From a virus, in the IMG/VR virus record IMGVR_UViG_3300030090_002574, positions 1 to 35,637 of that record: a stretch of DNA of 35,637 bases. The stretch is one strand, 5' to 3'. The position numbers and the translations under genes are program-made. Below are positions 2,228-32,271 of this stretch, piece by piece. Each line of letters starts with the position of its first letter. Position 1 is the first letter of the stretch. The notes beneath the pieces are model-generated. The model searched no databases, was not told where the DNA came from, and saw nothing but the letters and a program-made list of their open reading frames with translations.

Positions 2228-4675
2228 CTAATATAAGTCAAATTCTGGCGCTCTGTCTGGTTCTAATTCTCCAAAACGCCAATAAGGAGTTAGCTTTCTT
2301 CTTTTAAGTTTTCGTCTTTCTCGTCGCCTTATCTTGTTATACGCAACTGGATCAAAAATTTCTATTATGTTTTGCAATATCCCGTCTAATATTCTGTCTA
2401 CTTGCCACGCATTTGCAACGGGTGCATTTTCTTTTAAATACAACAAGAACTCTCCTAAGAATCCTTCATCATGCCCTGAAGTTACAGTTTTATAACCTAA
2501 CTTAACAAGCCGTACCGAATCTTCAAAAAAGCCCATTACTGGCCCATTTATTATGTCTGTCCCACTTGCTAAGACGTCAGCCCATATTGCTCCTGCGCCG
2601 CCTTTAAGCGTAGCTCTTTCCCAGAAATCTATATTATCCATTTTTTCAGGGTCGTTGCCCTGCAAAATATTTATTATTTGTATAGAAATTGCTCCAGAAA
2701 TAGTTAATGGGATGCCAAATTTTGCTAAATAACTAACTCTTGGTACTATCCCCCCTCGTCGCCATGCGTTTCTTAAATGCAAATAATACATCGTAACAGG
2801 CCATGCTTTAAATTGACCGTATGTCCTTGTTAGCGCTCCAACAACAGTATCTTCTCTAATGTATTCGCCCTTAGCTTGTCTTGCACGAAGTGTTACTGAC
2901 GGGATTGCTCTTTCCATTTCTGCGTTTACCGCAAAAGAAAATTTTTCATATAGTCTAAATGCTTCACTATACGGAATGTCCGTTCTATCTAACATTGATA
3001 TAGGAGCGATTAATCCACCAGCCGTATCCGATGTTTTCTTTGTTGCCCTGAATACATCCCACTCTTTAGATGTAATATCATATCTCGTTAGCCATGTTTT
3101 CATAGGTTCTGGCAAATCTGCAAATTTTGTTTTTGCAAAATCACCGAACTGACCAAATGTATCTAACGAAAATGCTTGCCGTCCTGCTGTAGTAAGATTA
3201 CCTAATTGAGTGAATCGAATTGTTGATTCTGCAAAACCCCTCAAAGGCCCAATAACTTCACCCATATGTCTTTCTATAGCCATTGTCTGTGCAGCTAAAG
3301 TGTGTACTCCCGCAGCTAAACGAATAGCTTGTATTTTTTGTTCTTTCCTAGTTAGCCCGGCAGCAAATCTAACTATTTCGGGCGCTGCTCCTGCTCCCAT
3401 TTCTCTGCGTACAATATGACGCAAACTTGAATCTGAAAGAACTGCAGGGATAGAAGTATACCCTAACTTTCCTGCTGCCTGTATGTTTATTCCTGCGTGT
3501 ATGGCCCCAGCAAAAAATCCTCTTGATTCAGCTTTTTGTTGATAACTAGCAATCTGGTGCATTTCCTTTGCTGCTTTATTATTTTTTTCAGTTTTAACTC
3601 TTAATCTTCCTTTCCTCTGTTTCCGTTCTCTTAGTTTTAGATCTAAATCAGAAGCACGTTGTTCTGTTATCTGTGCAATATTTTGAATCATGTTAGCTGG
3701 CTGATTGCCAAACTCTCTAGCTAATGCAATGTCCATGCTTACACTTCTTAGATGCCCTAGAACTGTACCTAATATATCATTTTCGCCGTATTTTTGATGC
3801 GCTTGCAACCAAGCATCAGCATTGGCGTAGCGTATAAATCTTCTGTGTGCATATTTAGACGCAATAGAGCTAACAGACACCCCGGTCTTTTTTCTTTTGA
3901 TTTTTCCATTGGTAACAATAGTGTCAAATACGTCTCCAAGTAAATCTGCTTTATCTTTTACAGTTGTTGGTATTGGCCTTCCTTCGGTAAAATCTTTCAT
4001 GTTATCCCAATCAAGAAAACCCGGTTGATTGTGCATTTCTATCCATTCTTTACGTCTGCCGGACATTCTTTCTATTAAATGATGTTGTGGCAATCTATAC
4101 AAAGGGTCTCTCTGTATAGTAATCCCTGCTTCTGCCATCATATTCAAGGACATATCGTTAGATCGCTGAATACCTTTTGCTACGTCCCCTGACATTCCTC
4201 CTATAGTATCATCAAATGTTGCTCTGACAATTTCCTCCATTTTTTTCTGAGAATCATAAAACGGAATATATTTATTAAACGTAGCGGGGGCTGTGCCTAT
4301 AATTCTTGTTCTAGCCATTCCTACCATATCTGCAAGGGGTGCGGTAAGTGCATCAAGAATTGCGTTAGTGCCTAACGTATACGCTCGTTCCACAACATTA
4401 ATACTGTATTCTGACAGGTCGGTACCGTCTAGTTTCTGAATAGCTTCTTCGTGACGAGCTGCAGTTTTTATATTGTATAAATATGCGCCCCTTCCTTCTA
4501 CATTTTTTTGTACTATACTATCAAACATTTCTTCAGCAGCATCTAACTCTGCTTTTACAGCATCAGAGCCATTTGCTTTATGAAATTTAAGACGTGTGCT
4601 GTAATCATCTATAATAGCTGATTTTTGTTTTGCGCTTAAAGTAGTGCGGTTTATACAATCTATAAATTTGCTCAT
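2228..4675 (-). CDS. Internal virion / ejection protein (large, last of the set)
   Basis: An 815-residue protein beginning MSKFIDCINRTTLSAKQK. Start chosen at ATG 4675 because it overlaps the upstream TGA (ATGA), giving translational coupling; a GTG three codons earlier is possible. It is mostly helical and basic, with hydrophobic stretches near residues 650-730. I see no lytic transglycosylase motif. Its place between the tail-tube genes and the fibre, and its size, match the large inner-core proteins that T7-type podoviruses eject to carry DNA across the envelope. The role is inferred from synteny. With the preceding gene it might be one large ejection protein split in two. Confidence 0.65.
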   Translation of the reverse strand: MSKFIDCINRTTLSAKQKSAIIDDYSTRLKFHKANGSDAVKAELDAAEEMFDSIVQKNVEGRGAYLYNIKTAARHEEAIQKLDGTDLSEYSINVVERAYTLGTNAILDALTAPLADMVGMARTRIIGTAPATFNKYIPFYDSQKKMEEIVRATFDDTIGGMSGDVAKGIQRSNDMSLNMMAEAGITIQRDPLYRLPQHHLIERMSGRRKEWIEMHNQPGFLDWDNMKDFTEGRPIPTTVKDKADLLGDVFDTIVTNGKIKRKKTGVSVSSIASKYAHRRFIRYANADAWLQAHQKYGENDILGTVLGHLRSVSMDIALAREFGNQPANMIQNIAQITEQRASDLDLKLRERKQRKGRLRVKTEKNNKAAKEMHQIASYQQKAESRGFFAGAIHAGINIQAAGKLGYTSIPAVLSDSSLRHIVRREMGAGAAPEIVRFAAGLTRKEQKIQAIRLAAGVHTLAAQTMAIERHMGEVIGPLRGFAESTIRFTQLGNLTTAGRQAFSLDTFGQFGDFAKTKFADLPEPMKTWLTRYDITSKEWDVFRATKKTSDTAGGLIAPISMLDRTDIPYSEAFRLYEKFSFAVNAEMERAIPSVTLRARQAKGEYIREDTVVGALTRTYGQFKAWPVTMYYLHLRNAWRRGGIVPRVSYLAKFGIPLTISGAISIQIINILQGNDPEKMDNIDFWERATLKGGAGAIWADVLASGTDIINGPVMGFFEDSVRLVKLGYKTVTSGHDEGFLGEFLLYLKENAPVANAWQVDRILDGILQNIIEIFDPVAYNKIRRRERRKLKRRKLTPYWRFGELEPDRAPEFDLY

Positions 4676-6597
4676 GTCCTGCACACCTTTATTGCGTCTT
4701 CTATTTCTTTTAACTCTTTCATATTTTCTATAGCTTCTCGAACTGTAACAAACCCGTTTCCTTCTACTTCGGGAACTGTCATATTCTTTTCTATATTTGC
4801 GCCAGCTACTTCAAACAAATCATCTTCTTTTATTGTGTCGACTGTATTGTCAAACGCCTCTTGCGATTGTTTCCTTGCTGTTCCTTCTGCTAATTCTTTT
4901 TCTAACCGTAACCCCGCTGCGTAATAACCTTCTCCCCCATAATGACTAGACGATATATAATCTAAAGGTGTTACCCTAGCTGAAAACGGAGAAACCGATT
5001 GTTCAGCTATAAAAGGTTTTATCTTTTCTTTACTTTTTTTAGCTTGTTTTGCTAATAATTGCTTAGCAATTTTGTTGCCTAGCCGTTCTCTGTCTTTTAT
5101 TAACTTCCTTTGCCTGACTTTTAATTTATTTATTTTTCTCTTTTGAATAGAGTTTGCACGGTCATAATATTTTATATCTTTAGCTTGATTAGCTCTTGCT
5201 GTATTTGCTTCATCAGAAGACCTAATTGCATTTTCTTCGTCAGCTAACGCTTTGCGTTGATTCTTTTTTAATTTGCTTTTGTCAATAGCATTGATCTCAC
5301 GCAACCGGGCTGCGCTCACGGGGTTTATTTCTTCTAGATAATCTAAAGATAATTTTTGTGTTGCTTGAGCAGAACGAGTAGTAGTTCTTTCTATATCAGT
5401 TTCTATTGCTTTAATTTTATTAAGAATATTGTCCAGTTCCCAATCTATTTTGCCAGCAGCCGCAGACGTTGCAGCATCTATCTCTGTAGTCGGAACGCCT
5501 CTAAATTGGGGTGTCGGGATAGAACTAGGTGGCATCTTACCATTTATAATATATTGCCTAGTTCGTGCTACTGCATCTGTTTCAATAACACTTCTGTACC
5601 CTGCTCCTACAATATCATCTCCAGTTAATTCTAAAGTTCTTTGATTTGAACGGCGCAACGCATAGTAGGCAATATCGTTAAACGACTCTGGCGCTCCTTT
5701 CATACGAAGTTCTATAACATCTTTTAACAATGTTTTAGGATCAAGTGTTTCTATAGTCCTATCTAGGTTTTCTAATAACTCACGCCCTAATGCTCTCTGA
5801 GGCGCTATTTTCCCTTCGATAGTTTTTGCTACACCTTTTATCGGTTTTGTAACTAATTTTGCTGCTGGTGGCGCTAAGTGCAATAAACTACCAGACGCAG
5901 CAAAACCTATTCTTGTTGCTTGTCTTCCATAACTATTGTCCAACCCTAACAAACGACGGTTTTCTGCAACGCCGAATAATTGGTTTGTCGCTTCTATTCC
6001 ACCTAATAATCCAGCTTCCGCTGCTACTCGTCCCCATAAACTGCTTGCTGGCAGAGCCATAAACAGACTTCCTACGTTTAACGGGTCTCTTAATGTAAAC
6101 GCCCCCGCTACGCCACCAACCATTCCTCCAAACCAACCAGCAAAGTTCTGATTTCTTGCTACTTCACTTGCATTAATTTCAGCAGCTTTTGCCTTGTCTT
6201 GAATTGATTCCCAAATTTCAGGTAAAGTTTTTACAGAAAATCCTTGCTCTTTAGCTTCTTCTAATCTAACCCTCATTTCGTTATAAATTGCTTTTTGGTC
6301 TTGTATTGTTAGTTCTTCAGAAGCCCATCTAGGGTCTTCTCCTTCTAAATCACGAGCTACAGACAAAAGCGCCCCAAAGCCTAAAAAGCCCTGTAAAGTT
6401 TTACCTGTTGCTTGTTTGTATTGCTCCATGTTTTCGTTTATTGCATCTTGCATTTCAAATTCTATAGCATAAAGTGCGTCACCAATACTTTCTTGCTCAA
6501 ACATTGCCTCAAAATTTTGCCCAAACCCTGTTGGTGCAGTTGGGTTGCCCGGATTTAAAATTAACGGCTGTTTGCGGGTAGGTTGTGTAAATAACAT
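4672..6597 (-). CDS. Internal virion / ejection protein
   Basis: A 641-residue protein starting MLFTQPTRKQPL. Residues ~150-210 hold Gly/Ala-rich hydrophobic segments (GWFGGMVGGVAGAF, LWGRVAAEAGLLGG) that could insert in a membrane. Residues ~380-530 are strongly charged and probably coiled-coil (many K, R, E). The stop overlaps the next gene's start by ATGA, and the upstream gene ends two bases before this start, so the set is co-translated. The ribosome site is weak. A role in DNA ejection through the cell envelope is inferred from position in the late operon and composition; no enzymatic motif was recognised. Confidence 0.62.
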   Translation of the reverse strand: MLFTQPTRKQPLILNPGNPTAPTGFGQNFEAMFEQESIGDALYAIEFEMQDAINENMEQYKQATGKTLQGFLGFGALLSVARDLEGEDPRWASEELTIQDQKAIYNEMRVRLEEAKEQGFSVKTLPEIWESIQDKAKAAEINASEVARNQNFAGWFGGMVGGVAGAFTLRDPLNVGSLFMALPASSLWGRVAAEAGLLGGIEATNQLFGVAENRRLLGLDNSYGRQATRIGFAASGSLLHLAPPAAKLVTKPIKGVAKTIEGKIAPQRALGRELLENLDRTIETLDPKTLLKDVIELRMKGAPESFNDIAYYALRRSNQRTLELTGDDIVGAGYRSVIETDAVARTRQYIINGKMPPSSIPTPQFRGVPTTEIDAATSAAAGKIDWELDNILNKIKAIETDIERTTTRSAQATQKLSLDYLEEINPVSAARLREINAIDKSKLKKNQRKALADEENAIRSSDEANTARANQAKDIKYYDRANSIQKRKINKLKVRQRKLIKDRERLGNKIAKQLLAKQAKKSKEKIKPFIAEQSVSPFSARVTPLDYISSSHYGGEGYYAAGLRLEKELAEGTARKQSQEAFDNTVDTIKEDDLFEVAGANIEKNMTVPEVEGNGFVTVREAIENMKELKEIEDAIKVCRT

Positions 6598-6598
6598 T

Positions 6599-8689
6599 TT
6601 ATTTTTGCAACCTATTAGCTAAAAGTTCATCAATCTTTTCAGCGCTTAACACTATTTGAAATCTAGCGCCTGTTTCACTGTCTTGCACAAAATCGCCATA
6701 TTTATCTCTAAATGAGTATGCAATTTCCCCTTGATTTAACTGGCTTAGAGGTCGGTCAACTACAGGTATAGCGTTATCTAACAAATCTCTAGCTTGCACT
6801 ATTTTCCCCCGATATATAGGCGCACCACCTGTTGCAGAATAAAACTGCAACTCGCTGTCGTTCATTATCTCTAACGCATTGTCAAACTCATCACCTCTTA
6901 CATCAAAAGGCAATATGATTCTTGCACCGCCATTTACTTCATGTAATCCTTCTCCTAAATTGTCTTCATCAATTCTAGGATGTCCTAAGACTGACTGCAC
7001 CGCTTCTTCTGCAAGTTTTTTCTCGTAAATTACTGGTCTACCCAATGCTTTTGCTGCTCTAGCTGTACCTCCTTTACCTAAATAAAACGCTATAGCTGCG
7101 TTGGTATGTGCTTCTAAATTATCGGCCCCTGTCTCGAATAGAACTGATCGTAACATACTTTCTATTTCTACCTTTAAATCTTGATATTCTCCTCGTTCCA
7201 TTATATTTTTAGATAGGTCTGTACCTTTTGCAATCATCTGTATTGTTTCATCATGCACATGATCGTTTTGAGCTTTTAATGCACCCATAACTGCTAGATT
7301 TTTATTAATCTTTTTAAAGCTATCCATTACAGTAATAGCTCTATCTCCTGCTGCTGTAACTATATTAGCCGCAATTTGAGATCGTTCTATCGGCGTAGCA
7401 CCATCAAATTGATTTGTTATAGAATTTATTTCTTGTTTAGAAAACATTTCAAATTTGACGTTGTTTTTGTTTGCAAAAGCAGCCGCTTGCTCTTGTCTTT
7501 CTAATAAAGATTCTGGGCTATTAACATCTACGGGGTTTATTTCTCCTCTTTTCATGCCCATTTGTACTGGGTCTTGTGCTTCTGTTTGCATCCTTTTTAC
7601 TGTTTTCTGTGCTACCAGTGCAATTTCAATATCTAATTCACTAGCTCCTGCTTTTGCTGCTTCTGCTACAAGTAAATTAGCTTGGTCTACAGCTAGTGGA
7701 ACTGAAAGTTTTTGTATTGATTGCACTGTTGCATTTTTAGCCACAAGGTTATTAAATTTTTGTATAGCTATTCTTTTTGTTTGTTCATTTGGCATCTTAT
7801 CTAGGAGTTCTGTTAGCCTGTTAACAGTTTGATCGTCCATCAGAAAACCATTGTTTACTCTTTTATTTGAAGCAGCTATTTCAGCATTGAACATTGTTTT
7901 ATTTTGTGTAATAGCTTTTGCTCCAGCAGCCGCTCTTTTCTTGGCATAACGAGCCATGTTGTCTACATCTTCACCTTCGATTTTAGTAACCCAATCGCTT
8001 GTGCCGTTTGTTAGCTCTTTGTGCAATTTTTCTGCTTCTTGTGGCGTCATTCTATCAATTATGCCTGTTAAAGTCATTTTACCTAGTTCATTGCTTGAAG
8101 ATTTAACCTGATCTTTTAAAGCCTGTCCCGTTAATCCTAATCTTTCTGCTGTTGTTCTTATTTCTTGAATAGCGTTGTTGAGCGAGTCAGGGTTAGTATA
8201 GACATTAGACATATGGGAATTTTGAGCAGTCGTCATTGTCTGCGTTCTAAATATACCAGCCTCTTTAGCTTGAAATCTAGCAGATGGCCCTAATAGCCCT
8301 GCTTGTATTTTATTAAGCTGCGTTTTTCTGTATATATTGTCTTCATCAGACCCAGAGTTTGAATTTTGTTTTACATAATCATCAAAGGAACTCATTAGAT
8401 TTTCTGTAAAACCTGCAGCCCCATCTCCCCTTAATGTTGCTTCTTCCATATCAGACGCCATTTTTTGCGTCCAATTCATACGGGTTTCTGCTAAAAACTT
8501 TTCTGTAGCATTTCTTTCATCTTGTTTAGCTTTCTTTTGATACGCTTCTGCTACTGCGGCAACTTGTTTTATGTTTGCACTTAGTGCTTGACTAGAAAAA
8601 TCAGCAGCGGAAAACCTTACCCCGGTCGTTACTGCCCCTCTTGCTCCGGGCGCTCTTGCTTGACTTTCATATAATTTTATTCGTGCCAT
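6599..8689 (-). CDS. Internal virion protein, T7 gp15-like position
   Basis: A 696-residue protein starting MARIKLYESQARAPGARG, preceded by TAGGTAAG at a good distance. Residues ~45-80 (VAEAYQKKAKQDERNATEKFLAE) and much of the centre look alpha-helical with high Ala/Gln/Lys. The N-terminus (GVRFSAADFSS) resembles the start of many podoviral inner-core proteins. It sits directly after the small gp14-like gene, the place of gp15 in T7. Family membership is inferred from order, length and composition; no catalytic motif is visible. Confidence 0.6.
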   Translation of the reverse strand: MARIKLYESQARAPGARGAVTTGVRFSAADFSSQALSANIKQVAAVAEAYQKKAKQDERNATEKFLAETRMNWTQKMASDMEEATLRGDGAAGFTENLMSSFDDYVKQNSNSGSDEDNIYRKTQLNKIQAGLLGPSARFQAKEAGIFRTQTMTTAQNSHMSNVYTNPDSLNNAIQEIRTTAERLGLTGQALKDQVKSSSNELGKMTLTGIIDRMTPQEAEKLHKELTNGTSDWVTKIEGEDVDNMARYAKKRAAAGAKAITQNKTMFNAEIAASNKRVNNGFLMDDQTVNRLTELLDKMPNEQTKRIAIQKFNNLVAKNATVQSIQKLSVPLAVDQANLLVAEAAKAGASELDIEIALVAQKTVKRMQTEAQDPVQMGMKRGEINPVDVNSPESLLERQEQAAAFANKNNVKFEMFSKQEINSITNQFDGATPIERSQIAANIVTAAGDRAITVMDSFKKINKNLAVMGALKAQNDHVHDETIQMIAKGTDLSKNIMERGEYQDLKVEIESMLRSVLFETGADNLEAHTNAAIAFYLGKGGTARAAKALGRPVIYEKKLAEEAVQSVLGHPRIDEDNLGEGLHEVNGGARIILPFDVRGDEFDNALEIMNDSELQFYSATGGAPIYRGKIVQARDLLDNAIPVVDRPLSQLNQGEIAYSFRDKYGDFVQDSETGARFQIVLSAEKIDELLANRLQK

Positions 8690-20455: not shown

Positions 20456-21361
20456 ATGTCTAAAATTGACATAAAACAACAAGTCACAGACAAGATTATC
20501 GCACATCTTGAGGGCAATCACGATCACGGCGAATGGGAAAAACCTTTTTTTTGTTTAGGTGCTGATCGTAATATTAAGTCGAATCAGCCTTACAAAGGCA
20601 TTAATACGTTATTGCTTGGAATGGCAGGATATAATTCCTCATATTGGGGTACTTATAAACAATGGGGAGAGATAGGCGGTAAAGTCATAAAAGGCCAGAA
20701 AGCCACTCACATTGTATTCTTTAAGCCTATTACAAAAGAAGACGCCGACGGCCAAGTGACCGATAAGTTTTTTGTGTTGCGAGGGTATAGCGTTTTTAAT
20801 CTTGAGCAGATCGAAGGAATTGAAAAGGGTAAATTTAAAGAAAGGGCGAGAAGGTTGTCATTTGCGCCAGAAGACAAGGCCTCTTTTTCAGATCTTCCCG
20901 TCGCCGAATCTCTTATGATTGATAGCGGAATCAAGATAAAGCACTCTAATAGTGATAGGGCGTTTTATACTGCTACTGAGGATTTTATACACTTGCCTAA
21001 TAAAGAAAACTTTAAAGCGACCAAAACCAGCACGGCACTTGAGTGCTATTACTCTACAGCCTTTCATGAGTTAGGACACGCAACAGGACACCCTACCCGC
21101 TTAAATCGTAAGCTAGGAAATAGGTTTGGCTCTAAGCCCTACGCAGGGGAGGAATTGATTGCAGAGCTAACGAGCGCCATGTTGTGTGCAATAACAGGCG
21201 TTAGTCAGTCAGTCAGGTTGGATCATGTGAAATATTTGCAAAGTTGGCTTGACGTTCTCAAAGAAGATAAGAATGCTATTTTCCATGCTAGTGCTCAGGC
21301 ACAAAAAGCAGTCGATTTTTTAACCATAGCAGAGGAACAGGACGAGGCTCTATCCGCCTAG
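20456..21361 (+). CDS. ArdC-like antirestriction protein
   Basis: A 301-residue protein with the ArdC layout: an N-terminal ssDNA-binding domain (residues ~1-120, with KPFFCLGADRNIKSNQPYKG and YWGTYKQWGEIGGKVIKGQK) and a C-terminal zinc metallopeptidase-like domain with TAFHELGHATGH (H204, E205, H208) and a later E237 in EELIAELTSA. ArdC proteins protect incoming DNA from host restriction. Being the first gene after the strongest promoter fits action at the moment of entry. Leader GGAGTCAAA precedes the ATG. Domain call is strong; the antirestriction role is inferred from the family. Confidence 0.88.
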   Translation: MSKIDIKQQVTDKIIAHLEGNHDHGEWEKPFFCLGADRNIKSNQPYKGINTLLLGMAGYNSSYWGTYKQWGEIGGKVIKGQKATHIVFFKPITKEDADGQVTDKFFVLRGYSVFNLEQIEGIEKGKFKERARRLSFAPEDKASFSDLPVAESLMIDSGIKIKHSNSDRAFYTATEDFIHLPNKENFKATKTSTALECYYSTAFHELGHATGHPTRLNRKLGNRFGSKPYAGEELIAELTSAMLCAITGVSQSVRLDHVKYLQSWLDVLKEDKNAIFHASAQAQKAVDFLTIAEEQDEALSA

Positions 21362-21438: not shown

Positions 21439-21732
21439 ATGAAATTAACTAAAGATGATGTGTGGGGAAATCATGAGGAAAATCATAAAGGAATGATTGT
21501 CGCTGATTGTAGCCACGGTGGATTTGATAAAAAACATTTACGTTCAAAAAAGAAATGCCCAATATTCAAAGATTTTATTGACTACAAATCTGTCACGGTA
21601 ATTTGTGACGAAAATTTTGAAAACGAAGTCTCATATTGGTTGGCCTATGTTCATGGTGGTGGAAACATATCAAAGGTTATCCAACTGCCAAACAAAAAAA
21701 TTGCTATGCGATCTGATTATCAATGTTGGTAA
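21439..21732 (+). CDS. Unknown early protein, 97 aa
   Basis: Starts MKLTKDDVWGNHEENHKGMI after GGAGTCAAAACA. It contains scattered Cys and His (ADCSHGG, KKCPIF, VICDEN) and a C-terminal QLPNKKIAMRSDYQCW. No family recognised. It is the second gene of the early operon, preceded by two hairpins. Confidence 0.65.
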   Translation: MKLTKDDVWGNHEENHKGMIVADCSHGGFDKKHLRSKKKCPIFKDFIDYKSVTVICDENFENEVSYWLAYVHGGGNISKVIQLPNKKIAMRSDYQCW

Positions 21733-21746
21733 ATTAAGGAGTCAAA

Positions 21747-22079
21747 ATGATGTCTTATTATAAATATGATGAAATAAAGGAACGCTTTTTAGATTTTGTA
21801 TCAGAGCAGAGTGATGAGTGGATTCAGGACAACTACGATGACCTGCACCACCACGCCTTTAATACTGGCTATTATATCATAGGCTCACACAAGGCTAAAC
21901 AATGGCTAGGCGATCATGTATTCGATTGCATCAATATCATTAAAGTATATGAGCAAGATAATTTTGGGCAAGTAACTACTGATTTAACTAACCCTGAAAA
22001 GATTGTTAATATGTATGCTTATATAGTTGGCGAACAGGTGGTTTTTGACTGCAAATTTACAAAAGCAGTTAATGAGTAG
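21747..22079 (+). CDS. DUF7222-like early protein
   Basis: A 110-residue acidic protein. DNYDDLHHHAFNTGYYIIGS followed by HKAKQWLG, a central DCINIIKVYEQDNFGQV, and a C-terminal NMYAYIVGEQVVFDC match a phage family of unknown function that I recall as DUF7222. Start could be the second ATG (21750), which gives the same leader spacing as other early genes; GGAGTCAAA ends right at the first. Function unknown. Confidence 0.7.
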   Translation: MMSYYKYDEIKERFLDFVSEQSDEWIQDNYDDLHHHAFNTGYYIIGSHKAKQWLGDHVFDCINIIKVYEQDNFGQVTTDLTNPEKIVNMYAYIVGEQVVFDCKFTKAVNE

Positions 22080-22085
22080 GATTCT

Positions 22086-22136
22086 ATCCCCTTGCCTCTG
22101 ATTAGTTTTAGAGGCTTTGGGATGCAATCTTGCATC
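22086..22136 (+). promoter_or_regulatory. Structured leader before an early gene
   Basis: ATCCC...GCCTCT (22086-22099) can pair with AGAGGC...GGGAT (22110-22123). Alternatively GATGCA (22121-22126) pairs with TGCATC (22131-22136), loop ATCT. The two folds share bases 22121-22123 and may compete. They lie just before the GGAGTCAAA leader of the next gene, again suggesting control at the mRNA level. Confidence 0.4.
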
Positions 22137-22154
22137 GTAAAAAGGGAGTCAAAT

Positions 22155-22421
22155 ATGGTTGTAGATAATTTAAGATTAGATGTGATTGCAACTTTTGAAA
22201 ATCACGAGCAAGCGCATTTTAATTGTGCAATTACCAATAATGCTTTGGAAAATAAAACAAGCTTATTGAATTATGTTAAAGAACAATTGCATCGTAAAGA
22301 TTTAGTTAAACTATCTTTATGTTGGGAATGTCCAGAAGAGTTAGTTGGTAAATTTAAAGTTATTCAAGAAAGTATAAAACAAAATGCAAAATACTATTTT
22401 AAAGACGGAAAGGAGGTATAA
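22155..22421 (+). CDS. Unknown early protein, 88 aa
   Basis: Start ATG 22155 (MVVDNLRLDVIATFENHEQA) was chosen over an upstream TTG because the GGAGTCAAA leader sits at 22145-22153. Contains SLCWECPEELVGKFK. Likely a compact alpha/beta protein. No family recognised. Confidence 0.6.
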   Translation: MVVDNLRLDVIATFENHEQAHFNCAITNNALENKTSLLNYVKEQLHRKDLVKLSLCWECPEELVGKFKVIQESIKQNAKYYFKDGKEV

Positions 22422-22423
22422 TT

Positions 22424-22591
22424 ATGGCGCATTTTTCTATAATCAACACAAAAATCTTGGTTGAGTGGAACGACAGACCAAAGTTGGTGAATCTTGATAA
22501 CGAAATGCCTACCCACTTACAAGTATTATTCGACGATTGGTTGTGTAGTATTGAGCACGAGCGCAATTGCGTTGAGGAAGGTGGAACATGA
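22424..22591 (+). CDS. Unknown small early protein, 55 aa
   Basis: Reads MAHFSIINTKILVEWNDRPK and ends in EEGGT. A strong AGGAGG lies before the ATG, and the stop overlaps the next gene's start (ATGA). These two points support it as real despite its size. Function unknown. Confidence 0.6.
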   Translation: MAHFSIINTKILVEWNDRPKLVNLDNEMPTHLQVLFDDWLCSIEHERNCVEEGGT

Positions 22592-22833
22592 AATTTAAAG
22601 AAAACGATTATGTCAAAGTTATCGATCAAGAAATTTATGGCAAAGTAATATTTGTTCATACTGATAAAAAAACAGGACAGGCTAGAGAAATTGTTATTGA
22701 GGACTTAGATTGTCAGGAATTTTCAGCACCCTTCAATCAACTGTCCTACAGGCCAAGTGAACTCATAAGGTTAGACGTATCTTTTGAAATTAAAGACTTT
22801 AATACAGACCAAGTGAGCACAGAAAAAATTTAA
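22588..22833 (+). CDS. Unknown early protein, 81 aa, possible SH3-like barrel
   Basis: Starts MKFKENDYVKVIDQEIYGKV. The pattern NDYVKV...GKVIFVH...REIVIEDLD...YRPSELIRLD suggests a small SH3-like beta-barrel seen in many short phage proteins, but this is by eye. Translationally coupled to the gene before. Confidence 0.6.
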   Translation: MKFKENDYVKVIDQEIYGKVIFVHTDKKTGQAREIVIEDLDCQEFSAPFNQLSYRPSELIRLDVSFEIKDFNTDQVSTEKI

Positions 22834-22855
22834 AAATGGAAAAGGAGTCAAATAA

Positions 22856-23065
22856 ATGTACATCGAAAAGTTAAATATTAAAATTTTTACTGATTATCAA
22901 ATCCGGGGTAAAAAACCGAAGTCCGATCTTATTGGCGAATTTACTACTAACAAAATCATGGGCGCAGACAGCGCTAATCTCGAACCCTTTATTGAAGGGA
23001 TTATGAGCCTCTACCAGTATGATCCAGTAAGGTTAGTTGTGTCTTATGAAACTGAAAACAATTAG
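22856..23065 (+). CDS. Unknown early protein, 69 aa
   Basis: Starts MYIEKLNIKIFTDYQIRGKK after a GGAGTCAAATAA leader. Probably mixed alpha/beta (KLNIKIFTDY, PVRLVVSYETE). No family recognised. Confidence 0.55.
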   Translation: MYIEKLNIKIFTDYQIRGKKPKSDLIGEFTTNKIMGADSANLEPFIEGIMSLYQYDPVRLVVSYETENN

Positions 23066-23076
23066 GAGTCAAGACA

Positions 23077-23472
23077 ATGGAAAATGATAAATTAGACGAA
23101 GATTTTGAGCATGATTTATGCCAAGTATTAACAAAATATTACGGCGATAATTGGTCTAACGTCTGGGACAAGGAAGACGACGGGTTTTATTTAAGACTTA
23201 AAGTTTTCGGAAATATTTTAACAAAAGAAGATATTCCGATTGTAGACGATGAAACCGACAAAGTGACATATAAAAAAGTCGAAGAATTGACTTGGGATGA
23301 ATTGCAAAGTTTACACAGGGCTTACATACAAGTTGATCTGTACCATGACGAAGAACAGCTACCTATGCCTTCGAGAGATATAGAAATTTGGAATATTGTG
23401 AAAATCGAAATGAATAGAAGGCTTCAGTCAGGCTATGAGGGTCTGCACCCTGACGAATATATACCATTATAA
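23077..23472 (+). CDS. Unknown acidic early protein, 131 aa
   Basis: A very acidic protein (MENDKLDEDFEHDLCQVLTK; many Asp and Glu throughout) with leader GGAGTCAAGACA. Small acidic early proteins sometimes mimic DNA to block host nucleases; charge alone does not prove that here. No family recognised. Confidence 0.6.
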   Translation: MENDKLDEDFEHDLCQVLTKYYGDNWSNVWDKEDDGFYLRLKVFGNILTKEDIPIVDDETDKVTYKKVEELTWDELQSLHRAYIQVDLYHDEEQLPMPSRDIEIWNIVKIEMNRRLQSGYEGLHPDEYIPL

Positions 23473-26995: not shown

Positions 26996-27511
26996 TTATC
27001 TCCCGTAAAATTTAATTTCGCCCGTGTGGTTTTTATCAAAATAATACCAACAACAATTATCCTTACCAACGCTAGAGGAATTTGGTATCCATTTCACCCT
27101 GCCAATTGAAACAATCATCTCACACCGATGCAAATATGCCTTAGCTTGCTTAGTGTGCATCCAGTCAGCATCAAACAACAACCACGTCGGCGCAAGGTTA
27201 GACAATCGTGTAATCAACGGGTGAAGTATTTTCCTATCCCAAGGCGGGTTTGTAATAAATAAATCACCCTCACAAAACTCAAGGTCAAAAACATCTTTTT
27301 GTTTTATCCAGCCTTTTTGTGGTTCAATGTCAGACGCTGCACTGCAATCATGCCCAGCAGAATATAAATGGTCTATCAACGACCCGTCACCCGCACAAGG
27401 CTCGCAGTAGTATTTGTGTATATCTAAGAAAGGTAGCAAAGGTTTTACCGCACTCGCTGGAGTTGGGTAAAAGTCTCTTTCCTTCCTTTCAAAGTCGCTA
27501 CGTTTTCCCAT
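26996..27511 (-). CDS. SAM-dependent DNA methyltransferase (adenine/N4-cytosine type)
   Basis: A 171-residue class I methyltransferase. FYPTPASAVKPLLPFL is the usual opening; YYCEPCAGDGSLIDHL holds the SAM-binding motif I; DLFITNPPWDRK is the catalytic (N/D)PP(Y/F/W) motif for amino-methylation of adenine or cytosine. The order (SAM then NPPW) is the gamma-like arrangement, and no target-recognition domain is evident, so specificity is probably short or nonspecific. It may protect phage DNA together with the Mom-like protein. It overlaps the resolvase-like gene by 14 bases. Confidence 0.85.
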   Translation of the reverse strand: MGKRSDFERKERDFYPTPASAVKPLLPFLDIHKYYCEPCAGDGSLIDHLYSAGHDCSAASDIEPQKGWIKQKDVFDLEFCEGDLFITNPPWDRKILHPLITRLSNLAPTWLLFDADWMHTKQAKAYLHRCEMIVSIGRVKWIPNSSSVGKDNCCWYYFDKNHTGEIKFYGR

Positions 27512-29256: not shown

Positions 29257-30137
29257 AAATCACAAACAACTTAGGCTTGCCACAGCCGATTTTTGACGCA
29301 ATCAAGAACGATACTTACGACAGCGGAGACTCTGACATATCAGTCACACGTCTTATTGCTCCACCTAGACAAGTTAGCTTGATGCGGGACTACGGAGATC
29401 AGATCGTTGAAGATTGTTCTGACCGATTGTTTTCTCTGATGGGTCAAGCCATGCATCATGTCTTAGAGCGTGGAGGTGATGTAGAGGGCAAGCGTATTAT
29501 AGAGCGTCGTTTGTATGCAGATGTCGGGGGCTGGACACTTAGTGGGCAGATAGATTTGTGGGAAGATAATGTCCTGTCTGATTACAAGTTCACGTCAGTC
29601 TGGGAAACCATAAACGGTCTTAAAGAAGAGAAGGTACAACAGTTAAACGTACTTGCATGGCTATGTGAGCAGAACGGCATCTCTGTTGACGAGGTGCAGA
29701 TTGTCGCCTTGTACAGAGATTACTCAAAGTCTAAGGCTAAGTTCGAGCGTGATTATCCGCAACATCAGGTTGGCATCTTAAAAGCAAACCTATGGGATGA
29801 AGATGAACAGCGTGAGTTTATTGAAGAGAGGATTCGTGAGCATCAGGAAGCCCGTGAGTGGCTACCTACCTGTTCGCCGACAGAAATGTGGGAACGCCCG
29901 ACCAAATGGGCAGTTATGAAAGTGGGTAGAAAATCTGCCTTACGTTTGTTAGACAGCAGACAGAAAGCGCACGAATATTGCGTATCTAAGGGTCTTGTGA
30001 ACGACGCTGATGAGTTACAGTCAGACCACTACATTGAGTTAAGGCGTGGCGAAAGAGTTCGTTGCGAGAGTTATTGTGCAGTTGCACCGTTTTGCAGCCA
30101 GTACAAGGAGTCACAGGAAGAAGTAATTGAGTTTTAA
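29253..30137 (+). CDS. Cas4/RecB-like PD-(D/E)XK nuclease
   Basis: A 294-residue nuclease. H68 in GQAMHHVLERG, D101 in LSGQIDLWED, D110-x-K112 in LSDYKFTS and QQLNVLAWL form the RecB-family site. One Cys near the N-terminus (C55) plus C271, C275 and C281 near the C-terminus resemble the four-Cys iron-sulfur staple of Cas4 and AddB. Start ATG overlaps the upstream stop (ATGA). Directly followed by SSB, it probably processes DNA ends in replication or recombination. It stands alone with no CRISPR array. Confidence 0.85.
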   Translation: MKITNNLGLPQPIFDAIKNDTYDSGDSDISVTRLIAPPRQVSLMRDYGDQIVEDCSDRLFSLMGQAMHHVLERGGDVEGKRIIERRLYADVGGWTLSGQIDLWEDNVLSDYKFTSVWETINGLKEEKVQQLNVLAWLCEQNGISVDEVQIVALYRDYSKSKAKFERDYPQHQVGILKANLWDEDEQREFIEERIREHQEAREWLPTCSPTEMWERPTKWAVMKVGRKSALRLLDSRQKAHEYCVSKGLVNDADELQSDHYIELRRGERVRCESYCAVAPFCSQYKESQEEVIEF

Positions 30138-30988: not shown

Positions 30989-31131
30989 TGTATTATGTTA
31001 TGATGAGAAATGGTGACGGCACAGCAACTTGTTTTGGAAGTTTTAGCCACGAGTTTGCGGCTTATGCGAAACGAAAACGATTAAAGAAAAACGACCCTTA
31101 TTGCCAAATTGAGATAGTTAGGAGCAATTGA
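30988..31131 (+). CDS. Unknown small protein, 47 aa
   Basis: MYYVMMRNGDGTATCFGSFS, then HEFAAYAKRKRLKKNDPYCQ and IEIVRSN. Preceded by CAGGAGTGGCATTA. Reads like a small domain (a strand, a helix, a strand), and chains by overlap to genes on each side. No family recognised. Confidence 0.55.
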   Translation: MYYVMMRNGDGTATCFGSFSHEFAAYAKRKRLKKNDPYCQIEIVRSN

Positions 31132-31286
31132 TGAACTGCTGGCACTGTAATACGGAATTAATTTGGGGCGGCGACCATGACATTGATGAAGAAGACGAAC
31201 ACTATTCAATGGTTACTAATCTAAGCTGCCCCAATTGTCATTGTATTGTTGATGTTTATTTTCCAAAAGACAGAGAGGTAAGTTAA
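31131..31286 (+). CDS. Zinc-ribbon protein, 51 aa
   Basis: CWHC at residues 3-6 and CPNC at 33-36 (followed by HC) form a zinc ribbon. LIWGGDHDIDEEDE and MVTNLSCPNCHCIVDVYFP match a short family common in marine phages. TTAGGAGCAATTG precedes the ATG. It lies one gene before the Mom-like gene, recalling the zinc protein Com that controls mom in phage Mu, but this family is also widespread without Mom. Confidence 0.75.
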   Translation: MNCWHCNTELIWGGDHDIDEEDEHYSMVTNLSCPNCHCIVDVYFPKDREVS

Positions 31287-31502
31287 ATGCCAAAACGAAC
31301 CAAAGAAGACAACAGCGGATGGCCTGAACACCCAAAAAACATAAAAGACCAACACAAATTATTTGCAGAAAAAATGGCTTACAAACGATTTACTGATGTT
31401 GTCTTGAAAAGTAACAAAAACTTAATCCCTTGGAATCTGGTGCAGAAGGCAAAGCATAACAATGAAACAAACATTAAAAGTTTTACCGATAAAACCAAGT
31501 GA
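31287..31502 (+). CDS. Unknown basic protein, 71 aa
   Basis: MPKRTKEDNSGWPEHPKNIK, rich in Lys and Asn, probably helical. Its end overlaps the start of the Mom-like gene by 41 bases, so its translation may affect Mom expression. No family recognised. Confidence 0.55.
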   Translation: MPKRTKEDNSGWPEHPKNIKDQHKLFAEKMAYKRFTDVVLKSNKNLIPWNLVQKAKHNNETNIKSFTDKTK

Positions 31503-32085
31503 AACTTATAATTGGTATTTAAAAAAACATTATGCAAAACGAATACCACAAATCCTTTATGCGTTTGGGTTATACAAGAAAAATATTTTGATTGGAGTAA
31601 TAAGTTATGGAAAACCTCCATCTCCACATTTATGTGAAGGCGTCTGTGGCAAACAAAACAGCGAGTACGTACTTGAGCTTAATCGCCTTTGTTTATTAGA
31701 AAATAAAAAAAATTTTGCATCTTTTTTAATATCACACAGCCTAAAATTATTACCCAAACCTAAAATAATAGTCTCTTTTTCTGACACAGCAATGAACCAT
31801 ACAGGCTATGTTTATCAGGCTAGTAACTTTTTTTATACTGGTGCAACTGTGGAAAGAACAGATGTAGATACAGGTAGCAAACACGCTAGACATTGCAAAA
31901 ATTTAGATGCAAGTAAACGAAAGTTTAGAAGTTCTAAACACAGGTATATATTTTTTTCTGGTAACAAAAAACAAAAGAAGTTTTTTCTAAATTGTTTAAA
32001 CTACCCGATTCATCCGTACCCTAAAAATGACAATAAAAATTATGATGCAACAGCAAAAATAGAAACGCAACTAATTTTATTTTAA
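31462..32085 (+). CDS. Mom-like DNA modification protein
   Basis: A 207-residue protein like phage Mu Mom, a GNAT-fold enzyme that converts adenine to a carbamoylmethyl form and blocks many restriction enzymes. KKHYAKRIPQ (H23, Y24), GVISYGKPPSPHLCEGVCG (45-63), YVLELNRLCL (69-78), FSDTAMNHTGYVYQASNFFY (106-125, with D108 and H113) and KHRYIFF are the family's motif series. No DNA-binding domain is added. Its start lies inside the preceding gene with only a distant AAGG, so translation is probably weak or controlled, as for Mu mom. Chemistry is inferred from the family. Confidence 0.78.
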   Translation: MKQTLKVLPIKPSETYNWYLKKHYAKRIPQILYAFGLYKKNILIGVISYGKPPSPHLCEGVCGKQNSEYVLELNRLCLLENKKNFASFLISHSLKLLPKPKIIVSFSDTAMNHTGYVYQASNFFYTGATVERTDVDTGSKHARHCKNLDASKRKFRSSKHRYIFFSGNKKQKKFFLNCLNYPIHPYPKNDNKNYDATAKIETQLILF

Positions 32086-32109
32086 AAAAGCAAAAGGTAA
32101 AACACACAC

Positions 32110-32271
32110 ATGATTGATTTTTATTACAGCTTGGTTATGTTTTGTAATGGGTATGTTGAATTGTTTTATACATACCCCTCGTTAGAAATGTGCCAAAGGG
32201 CAGCTATAAAATTAGGAGATGGCGCAGCTTGTATCGAGCTAAGTTTGTTGCAAAGCCTCGTCATTAATTAA
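32110..32271 (+). CDS. Unknown small protein, 53 aa
   Basis: MIDFYYSLVMFCNGYVELFY then TYPSLEMCQRAAIKLGDGAA. Hydrophobic first half, three Cys. Similar short proteins with a Cys before a helix occur in marine phages. Weak ribosome site (AAAGGT, 12 bases away). Uncertain. Confidence 0.45.
   Translation: MIDFYYSLVMFCNGYVELFYTYPSLEMCQRAAIKLGDGAACIELSLLQSLVIN

Follow-up and report, generated by a model that had tools for sequence, protein, structure and literature searches.

The known system with which the locus reported here is compared is com-mom of phage Mu, where the GUG start of mom is located within an inhibitory stem (PMC6483171). The structure of Mu Mom is represented by PDB entry 8BV8, the record title of which describes an inactive S124A mutant. 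Homologues of Mom are already annotated in many phages outside Mu, among them A511 and Riggi, so a Mom in a lytic phage is not in itself novel. The gene described here is an additional member of a known family, gained as cargo.

The window, by which we mean the whole 35,637-base virus record analysed, encodes head, portal, tail-tube and terminase functions of podovirus type, and the nearest relatives of its capsid protein are found in HTVC010P-like pelagiphages (55-58%). A preliminary description of this DNA had proposed that a Mom-like gene in this record is controlled as in Mu, by the product of a zinc-ribbon gene lying upstream. We consider it highly probable that the locus instead holds a Mom-type enzyme recently acquired as a single cargo gene at the junction of two small genes, P3 and orf32110, that this enzyme protects the phage DNA and that the zinc ribbon is uninvolved. 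The features concerned are the following:
31131-31286, plus strand: zinc-ribbon protein of the phrog_2816 family, 51 aa, judged to lie outside any Mom circuit.
31287-31502, plus strand: P3, a small conserved ORF of 71 aa, of which residues 1-60 are native and residues 61-71 arise where the frame continues into the Mom cassette.
31440-31464, plus strand: inherited Mom start context (AGAAGG, 12-nt spacer, ATG), from a base-for-base alignment with the orf32110 start of a sister phage.
31462-32085, plus strand: Mom-family DNA-modification protein of 207 aa with a predicted GNAT-like fold, a single-gene cargo, from profile, sequence and model.
32079-32114, plus strand: copy of the C-terminal tail of P3 that carries the orf32110 start, directly after the Mom stop, from translation and alignment.
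32110-32271, plus strand: orf32110, the native right flank of the slot, 64-70% identical to relatives where it directly follows P3.

Profile and sequence matches, invariant residues and the predicted fold all identify the 31462-32085 protein as a genuine member of the Mom family. It covers positions 2-202 of the 202 in the Pfam Mom profile PF25680 (E=3.6e-35, with 121.9 bits where the curated cut-off is 27.1), and it matches the Mom-like DNA modification family phrog_1384 (E=3.8e-57) as well as, by BLASTP, Mu Mom itself (26% identity over 187 columns, E=7e-17), which puts the assignment far above chance. Matches were found in 304 phage records, with identities reaching 51%, and many of these carry a Mom-like annotation and lie outside the Mu group; in viral contigs, a single-sequence query returned 0 matches and an alignment query more than 590. 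All 29 residues that Mu Mom and seven relatives share without variation are retained, S87 among them, and 49 columns are invariant across 28 viral relatives of the protein. S87 aligns with the S124 of Mu and is invariant among the viral relatives as well. An AlphaFold model built from 28 window and viral-contig sequences (pLDDT 78.7, with the last 16 residues low) found its best structural match in 8BV8 (Foldseek E=3.4e-12; VIA Z 18.1; 3.8 A over 174 superposed residues), followed by a non-Mom acetyltransferase at a VIA Z of 12.2. The structure prediction suggested in the preliminary description thus places the protein in the Mom fold.

The origin of the gene can be read from a sister phage (contig 3300030107_001410), most of whose head and packaging proteins are 96-99% identical to those of the window. 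Its gene order matches throughout the region, with an exonuclease, the counterparts of the genes at 30127, 30672 and 30979, the zinc ribbon (88% identical), P3 (95% identical, over residues 1-60 only), orf32110, orf32272 and a lysozyme. Mom is absent from the slot, and neither a profile search nor a tblastn search of the whole sister record gave a match; the profile search was run on the sister without a separate positive control, but the same search did find Mom in S-SSM7. In the sister, P3 ends NE-stop, and the ATG of orf32110 lies within this end (...AAGCACACGAATGAGTAAC). The window reads ...AAGCATAACAATGAAACAAAC at the corresponding place, the same ATG now begins Mom and the last 11 residues of P3 run into the Mom cassette. 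Mom hence fills exactly the P3/orf32110 junction of the sister, with its ATG replacing that of orf32110. On the other side of the cassette, the frame after the Mom stop is ILKKQKVKHTHD-stop, repeating the P3 tail (compare NLVQKVKHTHE-stop in the relative L094). This copy is short (about 22 nt, with 17/22 matches to the sister junction), and its context matches that junction better than any other of the 464 plus-strand ATG contexts, the Mom start excepted. The GC content of the Mom ORF is 30.1% versus 40.8% for the window, the lowest of any 624-bp segment.

The comparison with the sister also brought out differences elsewhere. Three large proteins encoded at 2228-8689 (818, 641 and 696 aa), by their position of a virion-structural or internal type and the first of them belonging to phrog_684, are without match in the sister, while the flanking tail genes there are 92-97% identical; this block of likely ejection proteins seems to have been exchanged as a whole. 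Another variable region is the run of short low-GC early ORFs at 21439-23472, several of which have no counterpart, or just a partial one, in the sister. The 171-aa protein at 26996-27511 is 98.8% identical in the sister; its match to the phrog_799 'DNA methyltransferase' profile is confined to residues 201-374 of 458, and it has no Pfam match.

The same junction takes other cargo in other phages. Mom was absent from all 12 relative records searched. Among 12 relatives having both flanks, P3 and orf32110 are adjacent in 9. One (L093) carries a 313-aa DNA methylase between them (PF01555 N6_N4_Mtase, E=9e-51), the ATG of which stands at the same place in the P3 overlap as that of Mom; no P3 tail copy was present downstream of this gene. 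In the remaining two (L099 and L101), a small-ORF insert of ~0.4 kb is followed by a second P3 tail. These inserts (L099:1106-1690 and L101:4001-4580) consist of a divergent full P3 and then small ORFs, 35 and 73 aa long, that match no family, and their second P3 tail corresponds to residues 41-60 with 80% identity to that of the window. It is possible, and we put it forward tentatively, that HTVC010P-like podoviruses have a dedicated exchange slot between P3 and orf32110, where DNA-modification enzymes are swapped as start-codon-precise single-gene cassettes and the conserved P3-tail/start sequence serves as the exchange site. The basis for this wider idea is one genome with Mom, one with a methylase and two other inserts, and it needs more genomes.

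The zinc ribbon and the slot cargo vary independently. The window has both the zinc ribbon and Mom, L092 and L198 have the zinc ribbon and no cargo, L093 has the methylase without a zinc ribbon, and L094 and L201 have neither. The zinc-ribbon/P3 neighbourhood is itself variable, as is evident from a 144-aa ORF (MFSALACMAVAIYFEARAEP...) that lies between the two genes in more distant relatives (L210:2069-2822).

The most likely role of the 31462-32085 enzyme is to modify adenines in the phage's own DNA, which would shield it from host restriction. Mom would have been acquired recently as one cargo gene between the small native genes P3 and orf32110, and the insertion would have placed its ATG exactly at the former orf32110 ATG, so that Mom inherits that start site, while orf32110 would have received a second copy of the P3 tail together with a start site. 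The zinc-ribbon gene would be an older neighbour without control over Mom. The phage has anti-restriction content besides Mom, since an ArdC-like anti-restriction protein with ArdcN and MPTase-PolyVal domains is encoded at 20456-21361 (90% identical in the sister).

In our view the protein functions as a Mom-type enzyme, an activity that we infer. The alternative is that it is an inactive or repurposed passenger that has stopped making the Mu modification, N6-(methylcarbamoyl) adenine, or adds another group, or acts on another target. The low identity to Mu Mom would fit this, as would a fold that is common to many acetyltransferases and a cassette that is recent and low in GC. However, the gene is full length with no damage to its frame, the residues invariant in Mu and seven other phages are retained, strict conservation extends over the viral relatives, and the presence of a methyltransferase in the same slot of a relative fits a DNA-modification role. 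We therefore regard a passenger as unlikely and a functional, DNA-protecting Mom as the better account.

In a Mu-like circuit, the 31131-31286 protein would attach to the mRNA near 31462 and so open the Mom start to translation, as Com does in Mu. The arrangement that inspired it is real: the CxxC...CxxC zinc-ribbon gene lies where it was reported, on the same strand as Mom with one gene between, and its cysteines C3, C6, C33 and C36 align with those of Com, giving the same layout. BLASTP nevertheless failed to align the protein with Com at E<=100, and it matches neither PF10122 in Pfam nor the Com PHROGs, although Mu Com, as positive control, matches both families; we reject it as a Com homologue. 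Its match is to phrog_2816 (E=1.3e-4), with the conserved CW.C...CP.C pattern present; 'protease' is a label on database records of this family rather than a tested function. Relatives that are 41-65% identical occur in cyanophages, pelagiphages and Puniceispirillum phage HMO-2011, and in the individual records inspected they adjoin replication and other genes, not Mom.

Linkage argues in the same direction. Within flanking DNA of 4 kb at most and frequently shorter, no zinc-ribbon or Com homologue was found near Mom at the best 80 Mom loci from viral contigs (0/80), and no Mom near the best 80 zinc-ribbon loci (0/80), so the early caution that this zinc-ribbon family occurs in many phages without Mom was right. 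A Mom profile search of 20 whole zinc-ribbon records gave one match, S-SSM7, where the two genes are about 61 kb apart. Neither Com nor a phrog_2816 zinc ribbon was found near Mom in six inspected non-Mu phages with phrog_1384 proteins, and the zinc-ribbon gene is retained without Mom in the sister and in L198. We judge it to be an older, independent neighbour that does not control Mom. An analogous, non-Com CxxC gene upstream of Mom in other phages was also considered and rejected: around 86 Mom loci, CxxC...CxxC ORFs were found upstream in 3 cases versus 13 downstream, with no upstream enrichment, and most of the downstream ones resemble HNH-type proteins.

The start site of Mom was the other argument for a Mu-like circuit. 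Both elements of that argument hold, as the Mom ATG is buried in the preceding ORF, 41 nt before the end of P3, which lies between the zinc-ribbon gene and Mom, and the AGAAGG ribosome site 12 nt ahead of it is weakly placed. The same context serves orf32110 in relatives and is therefore inherited and not evolved for Mom. The folding that had been proposed as a check around 31440-31480 revealed no inhibitory structure; there was no excess of RNA folding at 31420-31500 or 31361-31500 (z -0.20 and +1.37, respectively), a score that is not diagnostic alone, given that folding the Mu leader at its annotated ATG yielded -0.40. Because the leader of Mu did not score by z, opening energies were used to compare starts. 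The Mom start needs 3.7 kcal/mol and is the 9th most open among 52 gene starts in the window, against 10.8 kcal/mol for the GUG of Mu; this contrast is supporting and not decisive, because several further gene starts in the window also need >10 kcal/mol. Neither folding nor opening energy indicated an inhibitory hairpin over the Mom start beside a Com-binding hairpin, and the Com SELEX motif, searched in its 3-nt-spacer form, had no match near 31462 within two mismatches. What had looked like a buried start with a poor ribosome site is the context in which the former downstream gene began, taken over by Mom and lying in open RNA, and Mom is probably translated by coupling to P3, as suggested by the P3 ORF running 41 nt beyond the Mom start. 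Tested on homology, linkage, leader structure and the empty-site comparison, the com-mom circuit is not supported, and we consider it very improbable.

With these results, the com-mom control circuit loses a second case that had been proposed for it. In its place, the empty-site comparison shows an abundant kind of marine podovirus gaining a Mom or a methyltransferase at one base-exact junction, and this interchangeable slot for modification enzymes is the interesting part of the finding. It opens the questions of which host restriction systems drive the exchange of modification genes in the sea and of whether Com is dispensable for Mom enzymes other than that of Mu.

In comparison with known systems, the Mom of the window shares with Mu Mom (PF25680; 8BV8) the Pfam family, the predicted fold and S124, kept as S87, and differs in being without the N-terminal extension, in having no com gene and in a start context that lacks an inhibitory RNA fold. 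The mom ORF as annotated in Mu overlaps com, whereas here the Mom start lies within the intervening 71-aa P3 and not within the zinc-ribbon gene. With Mu Com (PF10122), the zinc ribbon has in common that it is a small CxxC...CxxC zinc protein upstream of Mom, but it belongs to another family without sequence match, its gene does not overlap Mom and its family is not linked to Mom in other genomes. The closest counterparts of the enzyme are the Mom-like proteins (phrog_1384) of Bacillus phage Riggi, Listeria phages A511 and LP-114, Staphylococcus phage Alsa and Acinetobacter phage JeffCo, to which it is 43-51% identical over nearly the whole length; those phages have other genome backgrounds, while the present gene sits in an HTVC010P-like marine podovirus.
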